In this document: in pieces, positions 310-7,839 of the stretch
How the letters are laid out: each line of letters begins with the position of its first letter
Position numbering within the stretch: position 1 is the first letter of the stretch
Assembly (NCBI GenBank): GCA_021813325.1
Contig: JAKALA010000023.1
Location: 1 to 51,447 of the forward strand
Length of the DNA: 51,447 nt
Reading direction: 5' to 3'
DNA from: a bacterium
GTDB lineage: Bacteria; Verrucomicrobiota; Verrucomicrobiia; Limisphaerales; UBA11358
Program-made: the position numbers and the translations under genes
Notes under the pieces: model-generated
Told to the model about the DNA's origin: nothing
The model's database searches: none
The model's input: only the letters and a program-made list of their open reading frames with translations

Positions 310-2418
310 ATGGCAAACCGGCGGACCATAGGTCGGGGTTGGCATAGGCTTGAATCGTTTCAAGCCGTGATGCTTGGGGTGTCAACTGCCTGGCTGGTCG
401 CTGCGGGCAATTCATTTGGGCAGGAAATCAACCCTTCCTTCAACGCGCAAAAAATATCGGTGCCGCTGGAGTATCAGGAGTCCGCCAACGCCGTCGCCAG
501 CCGCAACGTGTCCGTCACTCTGCAAAACGCGCCGTTTGCCAAGGAGCCACCGGCGGTTTCCGGCAAGACGCTTCGCGGCCATCTGGAGTTCAACAGCAAG
601 GCCACAAATTGTATTTCATTTCTCTGGCAGCAAAGCGAAGGCCGGTTGTTTCTCGACCTGAACCGGGATGGCGATTTGACGGATGATCCGGCGGGAGCGT
701 TCTCTTCCGCCTCGGCCAACCATTCGAGCTATCAAACTTTCACCAATGTTCATCTGGGGTTTGACACCGCTCAAGGCCACCTGTCCGTTTGCGCGGATTT
801 GCTTTTTTGGAACTACGGTTCGCGCCCGACGTGCAATCTTTCCTTGCGCTCGTTCTGGCAGGGCGAAATCAATCTGAATGGCCGGGATTATCAGATTGGA
901 CTGGTTCCAGTCGCCTTAAATCCGGATAAGCCGGCCGATGGTGCCAGGCTGCTGTTGCGTCCTTGGGAAAAAAGGAACGAGGCGTTCAATGTTTTCGACG
1001 GATCGCTCGCCACGGTGCCTTACCAGAACAAACTTTTCATCAACGGACAGGCAGCTGAACTGGACCTACAAGGCGCCGCCGTCGCCGGCGAATGGAAGCC
1101 TACGGTGCAACTGGAAAAACAGGTCGCCGCCCTGGGCAGTTTGAAAATCGACGGGAAATTCATTCGCCGAATGGTTTTGTCCAGTGGCGCATATTTGGTG
1201 GTGCTGGATCAGCCGGCTGATACGGTGCCGGTTCCGACCGGCAGCTATGCCGCACCCGATGTTTTGCTGGAGCAAGGGGGCGTGGCCGCCAGTTGCGTGC
1301 ATTCCTCGCCGCGGATCAGCAAAGCGGTCAATGTGGATGGAATAACCCCGGTCATCTTGAATATCGGCGGACCGCTGACCAATTCCGTCTTGGCGTCCCG
1401 ACGCGGGCCGGATCTGCGCCTGGACTATCAGTTGGTTGGCGCCGGCGGCATGTCCTACAAACTCATCAACCAGGACCGGACGCATCCGCCGGAATTCGCC
1501 GTTTACAAGGGCGAAAATAAATTAACGTCCGGCAACTTCGAGTTTGGCTGAGGCGGCACCTGTTCGCACTCATGGCGAGTGCCTCTCAGCGCCAGTGGCA
1601 AGCTCAGGACTGTGGCTTCAGCCGATTTGGGCGGGCTGGGTGCCAAAGCGGGTGCGCCAGTGGAATTCACCTGGGTTTTGCCGAGCGCCGCTCCCCTCTT
1701 TATTCCGTGGTTGATGGTGCTGGCGCTGCTGACGTTGAAAGCCAACCGGAGGGCTGCGGCCTGGCTGATCTGGCTGCCCATCGGGCTTGTGTTGCTGCTG
1801 TCGTCCATGCGTGCCAGTTTGCCGCCGGGCACCGATTTCTTTATGGATGCAGTTGCGGCCATGGGTTTTGGCCTGGCAGCCGTCTGGCTGCTGGCGCATT
1901 GGCTGCGCCGCTCGCATCGGGTGCTGACATTTTTCTGTGTGCTGACCGTGCTGCTGGCTTTTGCGGCGCTGGCGTTGATCGCTTGGCGAGGCTGGGAGGG
2001 CATGAATTCAGAAGGCTTGGTGCTGGTGATATGGCTCGCCTTATCGGCCTTGATCACCACAGTGGCTTTGAGCTTGGGCGGCTGGTTGTGTCGGCGGGGT
2101 TTCCGTCCGGTGGCATTTTATGTGTGGCTGCTCCTGACGCTTGGAGGGTTGTGGTTTGCGCTGGCCGCGCCGTTTTTCATTCTGGCGGAGATCACGAACG
2201 ATTGGCGGATGGGCTGGGGCGAATTTTTCGTTCCCGTGCTTTCCGTGGCTGCGGGCCATTTCATCCTGTTGCTGCCCTTCCTGATTTTGTCATCCGCCGC
2301 GCCTTTCTTCCGCGCGCGACTCCTGGCGTTGTTGCAGATGACGCCGGACGCGCCGCCGCCCGTTTTGCCCACGACAGATTTAAATTTTGAACCCACAAAC
2401 CCCAAGGAGTCACTATGA
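310..2418 (+). CDS. Predicted membrane selenoprotein, Sec414 encoded by in-frame TGA
   Basis: Read through the TGA at 1549-1551 this is a 702-residue protein with selenocysteine at position 414. Residues 1-38 look like a signal peptide ending near NSFGQ. Residues 40-413 are beta-rich and extracytoplasmic, with an Asp-rich EF-hand-like loop DLNRDGDLTDDP at about 116-127. FEFG then Sec then GGTCSHSWR gives a U-x3-C motif. After about 35 more residues come seven hydrophobic helices (about 460-690), made only by readthrough. The frame between the TGA and the next codons is open, and the next gene repeats the arrangement. The start could instead be ATG 370. The gene overlaps the next by ATGA. The alternative is two genes, 310-1551 and 1579-2418, but the conserved sequence across the TGA argues against it. 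I do not recognise the family. Confidence 0.82.
1549..1582 (+). promoter_or_regulatory. Predicted bacterial SECIS element, copy 1
   Basis: The TGA at 1549-1551 is followed by a perfect 6-bp stem: GCACTC (1566-1571), loop ATGGC (1572-1576), GAGTGC (1577-1582). The loop begins 20 nt after the TGA, inside the 16-37 nt range known for bacterial SECIS elements, and contains GG. The G is not within the first two loop positions, so the match to the classic consensus is imperfect. The same structure with compensatory changes follows the TGA of the next gene. Confidence 0.75.
2404..2409 (+). promoter_or_regulatory. Shine-Dalgarno site of the second selenoprotein gene
   Basis: AAGGAG lies five bases before the ATG at 2415, inside the end of the upstream gene. 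It fixes the start at 2415 and supports translational coupling through the ATGA overlap. Clear ribosome binding sites are rare in this window. Confidence 0.75.
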
Positions 2419-3695
2419 GGCTGGCAACCACAACTTTTCTGGCCGGGCTGCTTTTTGTCAGCTCGGCCTGGTCCCAGTCGGAACAATGGCTGGAATATCA
2501 CACCGGAACCGAAGGGCGATTCTACTACACGCAAATAAAGTTAACCACCAATCCGCCCCCGGATGTCGTGCTGCCCAAACTGGACGCGGCCAACGGCGCA
2601 CCTTATTTCGCCCGTTGGGAAACCCCGATGGACCCGTCCGGCGGGCGCTGGCTGTGCCTGGATCGCACGCACAAGTCCGGCCCGTATGACCGGCTGTTCA
2701 TCGACCGCAATGGCAATGGCCGACTGGATGACGACCCGCCGGTGCGGGCGCGGATTACGTCCAACATGGGCATGTTTCCCGCCACGCCCGTGGTTTTCAA
2801 GGGAAGTGACGGGCCGATTACGTATCACCTGGCCTTTCGAATCTACCAGTTCGGCCAGGGCGATCCGCAATTCATGGCGTCTTCGGCGGGCTGGTATGAG
2901 GGAATGGTGAAGTTCGGCGACATCAAAAAGCGGATCGTGTTGCAGGATGGCAATGTCAACGGCACGTTCAATGACCAGTCGGACAATCCCTATCAATCCG
3001 ATCGCATTCAGTTGGATGGCGGGCGCGGCGATGAGCAATTCCTGGGCAAAATGCTGGAGCTGGACGGAAAATTTTATCAGATCGAAGTGGCTCGTGACGG
3101 GGCGTTTATCAAGGTGCGTCCGGCGGAAAACGTGGCCTTGGGAGCGGTGCATGTGCCGGAAAACATCAGTCTGTTTTCGGCGTATGGCGTAAACGGCCAG
3201 TTCACGCGCAAACCCGAAAACGGCGATTTCACCCTGCCAGCCGGTAAATATCGCATGGTGCGCTGGGAAATTTCCCGCAAGGATGACAAGGGCACGCCCT
3301 GGACCATGTCCGGTTACAGCTTTCCCGAATCATCCGATTTTCACGTGACCGCCACCAATCGCACAACGCTCGACATTGGCGAGCCGGTGCAGGCCGAACT
3401 TTCCATGGCCGATCGTGGCCGGGAGATCAACTTCAATCTCAAGTTTGTCGGCAAACAAAAAGAATTCATCGAAATCTTGCGGGACAGTCAGCGTCCGCGC
3501 GGGCCGAAATTGTCGCTGGCCTCCGCAGATGGTTCGCTGTGTTACACCAATTCGTTTGAATTTGGCTGAGGCGGGGTTTGTTCGCTCTCATGGCGGGAGC
3601 CCAAAAATGTTCAGTATCCGTTGACCGGCAGCATTCAGGTTTTCAGCCCGTTCCAGGTGGAGACCAGCCCTGTAAAGCTGGAGCCGCGAAAATAG
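2415..3695 (+). CDS. Predicted secreted selenoprotein, Sec385 encoded by in-frame TGA
   Basis: Read through the TGA at 3567-3569 this is a 426-residue protein with selenocysteine at 385, ending at TAG 3693-3695. Residues 1-20 form a signal peptide ending near SSAWSQ. An Asp-rich calcium-loop-like segment DRNGNGRLDDDP sits at about 97-108. The stretch before the TGA ends NSFEFG, and the 41-residue extension begins GGVCSLSWRE, so the redox motif is U-G-G-V-C. It is a distant paralogue of the upstream gene over most of its length: the Asp-rich loop, the D-x-GEPV region and FEFG-U-GG-x-CS-x-SWR all correspond. It lacks the membrane domain. Stopping at the TGA would give 384 residues and leave the conserved extension unexplained. 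Confidence 0.85.
3567..3600 (+). promoter_or_regulatory. Predicted bacterial SECIS element, copy 2
   Basis: The TGA at 3567-3569 is followed by GCTCTC (3584-3589), loop ATGGC (3590-3594) and GGGAGC (3595-3600), a 6-bp stem with one U-G wobble. Spacing to the TGA (20 nt) and the loop are identical to copy 1. Between the copies the third stem pair changes from A-U to U-A, and the fifth from U-A to U-G, so pairing is preserved while the sequence changes. Confidence 0.78.
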
Positions 3696-3781: not shown

Positions 3782-5893
3782 ATGAATACCAAACGAATCA
3801 GCCGCCTGGCGGCGATGATTTCCCTGCTGACCGGAGCCCTGGTGCTGCTGCCCAGCCAGCCGGCCGCGGGTGAAGCCACCGTCAGCGGCATGGTAACCGA
3901 CGCCGCCGGCAAGCCCGCCGCCGGCGTGAGCGTCCAGATCGTCGGCAACTACGGCCCGCACAACGGCGGCGTAAAAACCGATGAAAATGGGAAATATGAA
4001 CTGACCTGGAACCCGCAACAATTCGCCGGCCAGGCGGATATGTCCTACTGTCTTTTCGCCCGTGACGCCGATCACGATCTCGCGGTGGCGGAAGATTTGG
4101 ATGAGACCCCCACTCATCTCGATCTGAAATTGGCGCCGGCACTGACGCTTTACGGCCGCGTGGAATCCGGCGGCCAACCGGTCACCAATGTCAATGCCAT
4201 GGTCATTTTCTGGACGGGCAATCGCGGCATGTGGCTGCAAGGCCTCGCCCGGACCAACACGCCCGGCCAATACGAAATTCCGGCCCTGCCGCCCGGGCGA
4301 AAATACGGCATCGTGATTTCCGGCCCGGGCTTCGGGCAAAAACAAAATCACAATTTGGAAATCTTCTCCAATCCTGGCCGGCAGCAACTTGATCCCATCG
4401 AGCTTAAACCCGCCAACCTTACGCTGGCCGGGCAAGTGGTGGATGCGGATGATCAACCCGTGGCCGATTGCTACGTCTCGATGTATGGCGACGACCAGCC
4501 GAGCGGCAATAAAAAGACCGATGAGCACGGGCGCTTCTTCTTTGAGCACGCTTGCGACGGTCCCGTGCATCTTTCGGCCAACAGCCAGCAAGCCTATGGC
4601 AACGTGACGGCCGAGGGCGGTGATACCAATGTGGTTTTGCGTTTGGGAGAAAATATGGGGTCTGCCGGCACCAGCCTGCACAAGTTGCATGGCCAGGTTA
4701 CCGACAGCAACGGCCAGCCGGCGGCGGGCGTTTCGGTGGCCGTGCTGCCCAACAACGGCAATCGCTGGGTCAAGACCGACACCAATGGCGAATACAAATT
4801 GAGCTGGTCGGTTCAACCCTGGCAGTTGCAGAACGGAGTTCATCTCGCCGCCCGTGACACCGCGCATGATCAGGCCCGCACCGAGGAGTTGCCCGAGGAT
4901 GCCACCAGCCTGAACATTAAACTGAAACCCGCGCTGGCCGTGTCCGGTCAGGTGAAAAATTCCGAAGGCCAGGTGCTGGCCTCCGGGCAGATCATGCTTT
5001 GGATCAAATCCGGCAACGGCTACGAATTCCTGGACAACCAGAGCACCGTGCCGGTCAATGCCGAAGGCCGTTTTGAAATCACCTGTCTGCCGCCGGATGC
5101 CTCCTATATGATTTCCGCCTCGGCCAAGGGTTACGGCAAACATCAGCAACAAATTTCACCCGAATACGAAACCAACCGCATCGATCTGGGCGCCTTCGCT
5201 CTCGAGGTCGCCGACCGTGTCATCGCCGGTCAGGTGCTCAAGAGCGACGATCAGCCGGCCGCCGGCGTGAATGTTCAGCTCAATGGCCAAGGCCAGCCCG
5301 ACGGTTACATGACCACCGACAAATCAGGCCGGTTTCATTTTCAGGTCTGCGCGGGCGAAATCAATCTGTTTGCCTATTCGCAATTCGGCGGCGGCAACGC
5401 GCAGGCGACGGTTCAGGCTGGCGACACGAATATTGTGCTGAACCTGACCTCGAACGGCGGCTTTGGCGAACCGGCCCGCCGGACTTCGCTCAAAGACAAA
5501 CCGTTGCCGGATTTGAGCACCGTCAATCTCGCCGCCGATGCCGTGCCGGCCGGTCGCCCGATATTGCTCTGCTTGTTTGACGCGGCCCAACGGCCTTCGC
5601 GCCATGTTCTCGGACAACTCAACGAACAGGCGGCGGCGCTCCAGCAAAAAAGCATTGCGGTGATTGGCGTGCAGGCGACGGTAATCAGTGACGACACCTT
5701 CAAGGCGTGGAAGGACGGTAGTTCCATCACAATTCCGCTGGGACGCGTCACGGCCAAATCGGATAAAACCCGCTGGGCCACATCCACCAGCGCCTTGCCT
5801 TGGCTGGTGCTGACCGATGCGAATCACAAGGTCGTCGCGGAAGGTTTTTCGCTGGATGAGCTGGATAGCCAGGTTCAAAAGATCGCCAAGTAA
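3782..5893 (+). CDS. Secreted protein with carboxypeptidase-regulatory repeats and a redox-dead thioredoxin fold
   Basis: A 703-residue protein from ATG 3782, chosen because a typical signal peptide (MNTKRISRLAAMISLL, cleaved near PAAG) begins there; an in-frame start at 3578 would overlap the selenoprotein extension. Four carboxypeptidase-regulatory-like beta domains follow, each opening with a pattern such as VSGMVTDAAGKPAAGVSV. The last 130 residues resemble a redoxin/thioredoxin fold (from about DKPLPDLSTVNL), but the CxxC site is replaced by QRPS in FDAAQRPSRHV, so it should not do thiol chemistry. Proteins with an RPSR motif at this place are familiar from Planctomycetes and Verrucomicrobia. 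Its position after two selenoproteins on the same strand suggests a shared cell-envelope role, but a terminator-like hairpin separates them. Confidence 0.8.
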   Translation: MNTKRISRLAAMISLLTGALVLLPSQPAAGEATVSGMVTDAAGKPAAGVSVQIVGNYGPHNGGVKTDENGKYELTWNPQQFAGQADMSYCLFARDADHDLAVAEDLDETPTHLDLKLAPALTLYGRVESGGQPVTNVNAMVIFWTGNRGMWLQGLARTNTPGQYEIPALPPGRKYGIVISGPGFGQKQNHNLEIFSNPGRQQLDPIELKPANLTLAGQVVDADDQPVADCYVSMYGDDQPSGNKKTDEHGRFFFEHACDGPVHLSANSQQAYGNVTAEGGDTNVVLRLGENMGSAGTSLHKLHGQVTDSNGQPAAGVSVAVLPNNGNRWVKTDTNGEYKLSWSVQPWQLQNGVHLAARDTAHDQARTEELPEDATSLNIKLKPALAVSGQVKNSEGQVLASGQIMLWIKSGNGYEFLDNQSTVPVNAEGRFEITCLPPDASYMISASAKGYGKHQQQISPEYETNRIDLGAFALEVADRVIAGQVLKSDDQPAAGVNVQLNGQGQPDGYMTTDKSGRFHFQVCAGEINLFAYSQFGGGNAQATVQAGDTNIVLNLTSNGGFGEPARRTSLKDKPLPDLSTVNLAADAVPAGRPILLCLFDAAQRPSRHVLGQLNEQAAALQQKSIAVIGVQATVISDDTFKAWKDGSSITIPLGRVTAKSDKTRWATSTSALPWLVLTDANHKVVAEGFSLDELDSQVQKIAK

Positions 5894-5994: not shown

Positions 5995-6091
5995 GGAGGT
6001 GTGGGGCGACCTGGTGGCGCTCCTGGTCTTCAAAACCAGTGTGGGGCTCAACAAAGTCCCAGGTGGGTTCGATTCCCATCCACCTCCGCCA
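5995..6091 (+). tRNA. selC: tRNA-Sec (anticodon TCA)
   Basis: A 97-nt gene including an encoded CCA (6089-6091). The anticodon arm is CTGGT / loop CTTCAAA / ACCAG, with TCA at 6030-6032. The variable arm is long: TGGGGCT (6042-6048) pairs with AGTCCCA (6055-6061), seven pairs around CAACAA. The T arm is GTGGG / TTCGATT / CCCAT. The acceptor GGAGGTGT faces CCACCTCC: seven pairs and a T-C mismatch at the eighth. The extended acceptor/T helix, five-pair D stem GGGCG/CGCTC and G discriminator match bacterial selC. It lies about 100 bp after the third gene and on the same strand as the two TGA-containing genes. selA, selB and selD are not in the window. Confidence 0.96.
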
Positions 6092-6546: not shown

Positions 6547-6909
6547 ATGCGCCGTGTGCCACAACCGCCGATAAATCCCGCCGTCCGCGGGCTGGAACGG
6601 CATTTTTTCTGGCCCGGATTGGTGATGACTTTGGCCGGTGTGACCGTGCTGTTTGGCGGCATCCGCCATCTGACCGGCGTGGATACCACCGACGGCAACG
6701 CCGCGTCGGAAGTGCAATTGATGAAGGCTTTTTCCACTGCCGGCGTGCAATATGCCGACCAGCAGGCGCCGCCACCGCCGCCCAATCTGGACAACGTGGC
6801 CAACCCGGCCGAAGCGCTGGATCGCTGGGCCAAAGAGCAGGCAAATCGCCAGCCGCCGGCCTGGAAAATCCGTGTCGATATTAGCGCGCAGGCCGCTTGC
6901 CCGACCTGA
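6547..6909 (+). CDS. Small single-helix membrane protein, unknown function
   Basis: A 120-residue protein from ATG 6547 (a TTG two codons upstream is less likely). One hydrophobic helix lies at about residues 25-45 (WPGLVMTLAGVTVLFGGI), followed by a proline-rich stretch (PPPPPNLDNV) and a polar C-terminus ending AACPT. I do not recognise the family. It stops 42 bases before the 4Fe-4S membrane protein on the same strand, so the two are probably co-transcribed and this may be a partner of the iron-sulfur protein. The stop codon is TGA, but the frame closes three codons later and no hairpin follows. Confidence 0.6.
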   Translation: MRRVPQPPINPAVRGLERHFFWPGLVMTLAGVTVLFGGIRHLTGVDTTDGNAASEVQLMKAFSTAGVQYADQQAPPPPPNLDNVANPAEALDRWAKEQANRQPPAWKIRVDISAQAACPT

Positions 6910-6951
6910 ATAAAATAAATTTCCCGGTCACATGGCGTGGCCGATTTCCAA

Positions 6952-7839
6952 ATGGATTGTTCCAATCCCAACTGCCAAGAATGGCAACCGACAAACCTCG
7001 GACGCAAGCTCGCCAAGTTTCGCCCGTGGGTGCAGACTGGATTTCTCGGCGTGTGGCTCGCGCCACTGGGACGCTGGCTGCACGGTATCCCGGGCTGTGT
7101 TTTTCATTGTTATTCGTGTCCGCTGTCCGCTTTCGCCTGTCCGATTGGCGTGATGGCCAACTACGCCGCGCTTTTCCCGGTCGTCGGCGAAATTCCGTAT
7201 CTGCTGATTGGCATTCTGCTGTTGGCCGGTGCCACGACCGGTTCGCTCATCTGCGGCTGGGCCTGTCCGTTTGGTTACTTGCAAGATCTGCTGGCGAAAA
7301 TCGTGCCGTGGAAACTTTCATTGCCCAGTTGGATTGGCTACACACGCTATGTCGTGCTGTTGGGATTGGTGCTGATTTTGCCGGCGATTCTCGGTTTCAA
7401 AGGCATTCCATTTGAAGAACAAGTTATTTCCATTTGCCGCCTATGCCCAGCCGGTGCGGTGGAAGCCGGCTTGCCGTATTCCGTGCAGAGCGTAATGGCG
7501 CATCATGGCTGGATCATGAGCGGTTTGAAGACCGGCATCTTGATTGTGTTCTTCGCCGCTGCGATGGTCATTCATCGCCCGTGGTGCCGCATCTTTTGTC
7601 CGCTCGGCGGACTGCTGGCATTGTTCAATCGCTTCAGCCTTTTCCATATCCGGTTCCAGCCCAATGAATGCGTCGAATGCAACTTGTGCCGCAGCCGTTG
7701 CTCGATGGGTGTGAAGGTGGATCAAAATGTCAACGTCACCGGCTGCATCCGTTGCTTGGAATGCACCAAATGCGGCGCGTTGGAACCGGCGTTTGCCCTT
7801 CCGAAAAAAACTTTGCCGATTACCACAAACGTTAATTGA
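6952..7839 (+). CDS. Polyferredoxin-like 4Fe-4S membrane protein (NapH/CcoG-like)
   Basis: A 295-residue inner-membrane iron-sulfur protein (or 300 from the in-frame GTG at 6937). About five hydrophobic helices surround conserved cysteine motifs: CVFHCYSCP and ACPIG near residue 50, CGWACPFG near 105, and CRIFCPLGG near 210. The C-terminal tail holds two CX2CX2CX3C-type ferredoxin motifs, CVECNLCRSRC and CIRCLECTKC, each able to bind a [4Fe-4S] cluster. This layout is that of electron-transferring membrane ferredoxins of the NapH/NosR/CcoG group. The early CSNPNC pair is extra. The electron donor and acceptor are not in the window. It overlaps the convergent next gene by 8 bases. Confidence 0.85.
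   Translation: MDCSNPNCQEWQPTNLGRKLAKFRPWVQTGFLGVWLAPLGRWLHGIPGCVFHCYSCPLSAFACPIGVMANYAALFPVVGEIPYLLIGILLLAGATTGSLICGWACPFGYLQDLLAKIVPWKLSLPSWIGYTRYVVLLGLVLILPAILGFKGIPFEEQVISICRLCPAGAVEAGLPYSVQSVMAHHGWIMSGLKTGILIVFFAAAMVIHRPWCRIFCPLGGLLALFNRFSLFHIRFQPNECVECNLCRSRCSMGVKVDQNVNVTGCIRCLECTKCGALEPAFALPKKTLPITTNVN

Follow-up and report, generated by a model that had tools for sequence, protein, structure and literature searches.

Tandem genes with in-frame UGA codons

The DNA analysed here (the window) is a stretch of 51,447 nucleotides, positions 1 to 51,447 of contig JAKALA010000023.1, from a bacterium of the order Limisphaerales (Verrucomicrobiota) whose genome (GCA_021813325.1) amounts to 4.28 Mb in 123 contigs. 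Near its start lie two tandem genes, each containing one in-frame TGA, that are predicted to encode members of a selenoprotein family which we designate UGGxC, U being selenocysteine (Sec). The features of the two genes are as follows.

310-2418, plus strand: gene 1, predicted to encode a UGGxC selenoprotein of type A (702 aa including Sec); start codon uncertain
1549-1551, plus strand: predicted Sec codon UGA of gene 1 (residue 414)
1566-1582, plus strand: hairpin of gene 1 resembling a selenocysteine insertion sequence (SECIS); GCACTC, loop ATGGC, GAGTGC
1690-2334, plus strand: C-terminal helices of gene 1 (residues 461-675 of an AlphaFold2 model), read as a membrane domain
2415-3695, plus strand: gene 2, predicted to encode a UGGxC selenoprotein of type B (426 aa including Sec)
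3378-3692, plus strand: Ig-like (immunoglobulin-like) C-terminal domain of gene 2 containing Sec (residues 322-426 of the predicted structure)
3567-3569, plus strand: predicted Sec codon UGA of gene 2 (residue 385)
3584-3600, plus strand: SECIS-like hairpin of gene 2; GCTCTC, loop ATGGC, GGGAGC

A first-pass annotation, made from the letters of this DNA, had proposed that the TGA codons at 1549 and 3567 encode Sec in a novel family, and we found both codons, the preceding Phe-Glu-Phe-Gly and the following GG-x-CS-x-SWR where it had placed them. Beyond the UGA, gene 2 continues for 41 codons to a TAG at 3693-3695, as had been stated; for gene 1 the count of 289 codons is to be corrected to 288, followed by a TGA stop at 2416-2418. 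This stop and the ATG of gene 2 (2415) overlap as ATGA, and the two genes are therefore probably co-translated. The two proteins are diverged over most of their length, as had been claimed (23% identity over 341 columns), yet they match closely around the UGA.

Conservation of the UGA codon among homologues

Homologues were collected with a profile (A4) built from nine Sec domains. Because Sec was entered as Cys, this profile does not penalise Cys forms. When 320 genomes of the order were searched without any selection for TGA, 21 carriers with 55 matches were found, and exactly one TGA was read through in 54 of these matches, the exception being a fragment located at the edge of a contig. The same profile found 10 carriers among 387 genomes of the phylum, and all 14 matches contained one TGA; both counts include the two genes of the window. 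A wider profile (A5), built from 29 sequences, was applied to 392 genomes from the phylum to which G705 (record title Phycisphaerales) belongs, and gave 35 carriers with a TGA in 65 of 68 matches. A separate search with gene 2 in 59 related genomes yielded matches in six: the source genome, its congener G030, G039 and G050 have members with one in-frame TGA, and in the other two only the N-terminal part was matched. No match to gene 2 was obtained by tblastn against plasmids. The alignment of family proteins showed that the motif around the UGA is kept. These data support the earlier argument that a conserved peptide beyond the TGA implies its translation.

When distinct homologous sites were aligned to the Sec column, TGA was present in 237 of 242, a tally that derives in part from loci picked by a TGA pattern. 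The five other sites carry ACC, TAT, GGA, TGC and GCC, one each, all within degraded motifs; Cys (TGC) thus occupies this column at a single site. The homologue search in Verrucomicrobia that had been suggested returned the TGA-containing relatives that were anticipated, but the anticipated Cys homologues were almost absent and the family extends far beyond Verrucomicrobia. One Cys-form peptide pattern, run over the genome contigs, hit 60 stretches, none of them a relative. Within the reach of these searches, a family that freely exchanges Cys and Sec was rejected, there being no Cys-form relative and the one Cys site lying in a degraded motif.

A scan of genome contigs with the TGA pattern returned at least 114 loci, of which 107 encode the domain and seven contain no family site, and up to 11 family matches were seen in one genome. 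In a set of 20 genomes, a TGA was present in 96 of 97 matches; since these genomes were chosen through TGA hits, this figure is uninformative on Cys forms. Among the matches listed, record titles name Planctomycetota, Verrucomicrobiota, Lentisphaerae, Hydrogenedentota, Sumerlaeota/BRC1 and Riflebacteria. One record among the listed TGA-pattern matches (L154) is titled Actinomycetes and may be misbinned.

The codons beyond the UGA were also compared between relatives by the proportions of synonymous (pS) and non-synonymous (pN) differences. For gene 1 and its G030 counterpart, pS was 0.636 and pN 0.368 after the UGA (278 codons), and 0.652 and 0.351 before it (411 codons); for gene 2 after the UGA, pS was 0.390 and pN 0.144 (41 codons). 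In both genes, as the first-pass annotation would have it, non-synonymous differences beyond the UGA are fewer than synonymous ones, much as before it, with synonymous change being near saturation. An in-frame UGA followed by protein that is conserved in homologues, one criterion for UGA-decoded bacterial selenoproteins, was thus observed.

Two further groups of sequences were noted in these searches. In G705 (CP070675.1), seven family matches lie within 18 kb (5,045,950-5,064,015) beside selA, selB and a SelD fusion. Six other loci (L309, L311-L314 and L316; e.g., L312:1171-1827) encode weak-score relatives (E 1e-7 to 1e-6), mostly short (about 220 aa), that carry YGUGG without the Cys at +4 and possibly represent a further selenoprotein subfamily.

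A conserved, covarying hairpin downstream of the UGA

Counting the UGA as +1 to +3, the stem is made by positions +18 to +23 and +29 to +34, which enclose a loop of five bases. The hairpin starts 14 nt and its loop 20 nt past the UGA, and with a 6-bp stem and a 5-nt loop both hairpins of the window comply with the geometry of the bacterial SECIS (bSECIS; loop 16-37 nt after the UGA, stem of 4-16 bp, loop of 3-9 nt). In a first set of 66 sites, all six pairs were formed in 62, compared with a mean of 5.6 and a maximum of 12 when codons were recoded synonymously (300 trials). A wider set comprised 234 sites, being the 237 TGA sites minus three with incomplete context or N; here all six pairs were formed in 203, against a mean of 29.8 and a maximum of 45 upon recoding (200 trials). 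For covariation, a random sample of 58 of the remaining 232 sites was combined with the two sites of the window, giving 60 in all. Pairing was found in 94.2% of cells versus 83.6 after shuffling, and both sides change in five of the six pairs. The covariation score was 0.368 versus 0.169 for shuffled alignments, none of 500 of which scored as high, and slid copies reached 0.129 at most. Fewer than five pairs in the standard register were counted at 23 sites, many of which, judged by eye, have a shifted hairpin. Among the 234 sites, 125 have the loop GUGGC, which carries a G within its first two positions as the bSECIS model asks, and 67 have AUGGC.

In 159 of the 234 sites, the codon at +6 from the UGA is the exact reverse complement of the codon at +10, and in 205 the two can pair. 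As a consequence of the RNA hairpin, residue pairs such as Tyr/Val, His/Val, Leu/Glu, Val/Asp and Arg/Ala co-occur, and the hairpin thereby dictates part of the UGGxC protein motif.

Linkage to the Sec machinery

The gene for tRNA-Sec, which had been noted downstream on the same strand, was located by ARAGORN.

5995-6091, plus strand: selC, tRNA-Sec

In the genome, selA, selB and selD all score above their curated cut-offs, with selA adjoining selB, so that selA, selB, selC and selD, a further criterion for UGA-decoded bacterial selenoproteins, are all present. The first-pass annotation had named two findings that would speak against its proposal, namely homologues ending at the TGA and a genome lacking selA, selB and selD; the homologues do not stop there, and the three genes were found.

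Across the order, a tRNA-Sec of at least 60 bits was present in 20 of 21 carriers and in 57 of 299 non-carriers (Fisher p 9e-13, kinship not corrected for). The 60-bit line is our own choice; the family's own cut-off does not discriminate, because 260 of the 320 genomes pass it. Gene neighbourhoods were also surveyed. A survey of 113 loci is biased, since some were retrieved with a view to covering selC (L124-L128) or gene clusters; at least five pairs in it are duplicate contigs. A fairer set consists of 83 loci of at least 6 kb, picked only by the TGA pattern among the matches listed, and may contain overlapping records. In this set, at least one of selA, selB, selC and selD was found in 24 loci, a Fer4_5 polyferredoxin in 14 and a protein of the gene 3 type (described below) in 12; neighbour labels were assigned from one representative per cluster. 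Recurrent near UGGxC genes are SelD-CMD fusions, HGD-D genes and methyltransferase genes. Two loci illustrate the arrangement: the gene order is selA, selB, CPTU (a second candidate family, see below), polyferredoxin and UGGxC protein in L149 (titled Riflebacteria), and selC, selA, selD, selB, polyferredoxin and UGGxC protein in L163 (titled BRC1).

Regarding these neighbours, SelD is fused to a carboxymuconolactone-decarboxylase (CMD; AhpD-like) domain near Sec genes in L319 (14450-16054) and at other loci; in the source genome, the open frame of SelD is 529 aa. HGD-D genes (2-hydroxyglutaryl-CoA dehydratase-like), often with a methyltransferase, stand beside short Planctomycetota members in L145, L181, L187, L217 and L319.

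CPTU, a second candidate selenoprotein family

The first-pass annotation had counted two selenoprotein genes in this island and overlooked a third candidate, located between selC and a gene for a NapH-like polyferredoxin.

3782-5893, plus strand: gene 3, carboxypeptidase-regulatory repeats with a conserved QRPSR; recurrent neighbour
6547-6918, plus strand: CPTU gene, candidate selenoprotein of 123 aa; putative Sec codon UGA at 6907-6909, TAA stop at 6916-6918
6925-6943, plus strand: hairpin after the CPTU stop; CGGTCAC, loop ATGGC, GTGGCCG
6952-7839, plus strand: NapH-like membrane polyferredoxin (Fer4_5), recurrent neighbour; alternative start GTG at 6937 possible

The CPTU protein has a hydrophobic N-terminal stretch and would end in Cys-Pro-Thr-Sec-Ile-Lys. 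In its relatives, a tail of one or two amino acids (mainly Val or Ile followed by Lys, His or Arg) separates the TGA from a stop, with a hairpin of 5-8 bp lying largely beyond the stop; 24 of 25 candidates passed a filter that required a 5-bp hairpin and a 40-codon open reading frame (ORF). The 320 genomes of the order include 12 with a 21-base pattern of the CPTU tail, every one of which belongs to the 21 UGGxC carriers, while the reversed control pattern was found in two of the 320. Variant tails occur in three more carriers (G258, G096 and G050). Of 33 carriers, most of them from other groups, six had the pattern, one without a true stop. Searched against NCBIfam 20.0 at E up to 0.1, three CPTU proteins matched no family, and Pfam returned two rows, both under the cut-off, for one member. 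CPTU is very probably a second family of selenoproteins, small and membrane-anchored, although fewer sequences stand behind this claim than behind that for UGGxC. Like the UXX-star selenoproteins, CPTU would have its Sec two residues from the end; the UXX-star families are, however, Grx-like according to the table of a 2026 review (PMC13188914), whereas CPTU is a small anchored protein.

The polyferredoxin shares Fer4_5 and the CxxC/CxxxCP motifs with NapH/MauN ferredoxin-type proteins, but it scores below TIGR02163 (NapH/MauN; 43.2 bits against a cut-off of 213.05) and is hence called NapH-like only. The C-terminal part of gene 3 shows a weak likeness to AhpC-TSA (20.3 bits against a cut-off of 26).

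Protein architecture and novelty of UGGxC

Neither genes 1 and 2 (E up to 1) nor ten other members (E up to 0.01) matched a family in NCBIfam 20.0, a library in which the presence of every selenoprotein model named in the review is unconfirmed. For the same twelve proteins, Pfam gave three rows only, all under the cut-off, and the description of genes 1 and 2 as an unrecognised family held against both libraries. In one member, the C-terminal part matched Laminin_G_3 over the cut-off and F5_F8_type_C under it. Gene 2, the only protein queried against the PDB by sequence, found no match there. With gene 2, Foldseek gave nothing at an E-value of 0.001 or below; two rows for gene 1 were dismissed as not credible (template modelling score of 0.10 or less).

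Structures were predicted with AlphaFold2, Sec being written as Cys. The model of gene 2 is all-beta (predicted local distance difference test score [pLDDT] 90.9, predicted template modelling score [pTM] 0.84), with a mean pLDDT of 65 in the block 381-390 around Sec. Gene 1 was modelled as a beta part followed by the helices at 461-675 (pLDDT 84.0, pTM 0.69). The Sec domain of gene 2 resembles immunoglobulin, macroglobulin and fibronectin type III sandwiches (best Z 6.2 over 92 residues, root-mean-square deviation 2.8), a common arrangement. A thioredoxin fold around Sec was not found, the model being all-beta by DSSP with low confidence in the Sec loop. By these models, Sec looks to be placed in an Ig-like beta-sandwich with the motif [FY]-G-U-G-G-x-C, type A proteins being apparently membrane-anchored and type B secreted. 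N-terminal hydrophobic stretches, assessed by eye and with no signal-peptide program, make the UGGxC proteins look exported. Conservation across the 234 sites is 99% for Gly at -1, 86% for Gly at +1, 88% for Gly at +2 and 91% for Cys at +4. The family has several architectures, including short membrane-anchored members.

Like the known prokaryotic selenoprotein families in Table 1 (119 families) of the review PMC13188914, UGGxC combines a UGA with a downstream hairpin and, in most members, Sec with a nearby Cys. According to the review, Cys homologues exist for nearly all selenoproteins, whereas UGGxC has almost none. None of the families in that table has the UGGxC domain or motif by name. 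No published title or abstract among those searched shows the motif, and a prior listing among unvalidated candidates or in supplements is possible. UGGxC seems, from its sequences, to be a large unnamed bacterial family that spans several phyla and has been missed by annotation. According to the sections consulted of the same review, the two main strategies of selenoprotein search pair a UGA with Cys homologues or apply a SECIS model, and a deep-learning tool likewise ends in a homology filter. Given that Cys homologues are almost lacking and that the loops of the window break the SECIS rule (see below), UGGxC offers a test case for how many selenoproteins have so far escaped detection. The near-total absence of Cys at this position also gives added weight to the question of why Sec is retained in preference to Cys.

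Secreted AhpC-TSA/Redoxin proteins of the order (L013 and L014) have a related N-terminal beta domain with DxNxNGDxTDDP (E 1e-4 and 6e-4). They differ in that a WCxxC redoxin domain replaces the UGG domain and no in-frame TGA is present.

Interpretation

The UGA codons of genes 1 and 2 almost certainly insert Sec, given the conserved UGA, the covarying hairpin, the sel genes and their linkage, together with what is established about Sec decoding; the first-pass annotation is supported on this point. That the UGA is instead a true stop or encodes another amino acid, the conserved peptide beyond it being something else, is very improbable: the conserved frame and peptide, the covarying hairpin, the sel genes and the co-occurrence with tRNA-Sec all run counter to this explanation.

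The best explanation overall combines Sec-decoded UGGxC genes with a redox relay outside the cytoplasm, and we give this joint reading a probability of about 0.6. SelB, tRNA-Sec and the downstream hairpin would decode the UGA as Sec; the NapH-like polyferredoxin would pass electrons across the membrane to the small anchored CPTU protein with its C-terminal Cys-x-x-Sec; the CPTU tail would reduce UGGxC domains; and these, at the end of the relay, would reduce some oxidised substrate outside the cytoplasm. A redox role in this compartment is suggested by the pairing of Sec with Cys that most members show, by the linkage to the polyferredoxin and to a CxxU protein, and by two proteins in which a related N-terminal domain is combined with a redoxin domain. 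For the relay by itself, the odds are roughly balanced. A little less likely than not is the broader picture of a selenium-dependent extracytoplasmic electron transfer, fed by the NapH-like polyferredoxin and involving at least three selenoproteins (tethered CPTU, anchored type A and secreted type B), in which UGGxC has no working Cys form and perhaps was born with Sec rather than through a Cys-to-Sec exchange.

Several observations weigh against these readings. The loops of the window, AUGGC, have no G in their first two places, where the standard bSECIS model wants one, although some bSECIS are described as deviating (PMC13188914). One carrier, the 57% complete genome G111, lacks a tRNA-Sec at 60 bits, and the co-occurrence test ignores kinship. 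The Cys at +4 is absent from about 9% of sites, so that a Sec-Cys bond is not universal. Because the polyferredoxin was present in only 14 of the 83 loci and the CPTU pattern in 12 of the 21 carriers of the order and in five or six of 33 elsewhere, the relay may not be general. Moreover, the case for both Sec and the relay is computational throughout.

The same residue pattern could be read differently, with Sec serving at the cell surface as a ligand for a metal or metalloid rather than as a redox centre. The incomplete conservation of Cys at +4, as opposed to the glycines at -1, +1 and +2, would fit such a role, and many uncharacterised selenoproteins may bind metals, as the review suggests (PMC13188914). 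The linkage to the polyferredoxin and to CxxU, and the thioredoxin-type domains of proteins related to the N-terminal part, are more readily accommodated by redox chemistry, and we consider a metal ligand unlikely. Less likely still is a structural role, in which Sec would form a covalent cross-link in surface proteins; strings of beta-sandwiches, secreted forms and the extensions like laminin-G or F5/8-C in some members are in keeping with it, but the short membrane-anchored members, the C-terminal helices of type A and the redox neighbours are not.

Contig end

At the extreme end of the contig, a short ORF occupies positions 4-195 on the minus strand and is flanked by an inverted repeat at 1-21 and about 169-189 (ACATTAACAATGAGTCAAAAA). 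Judged by eye, the ORF and the repeat look like the remnant of a mobile element.

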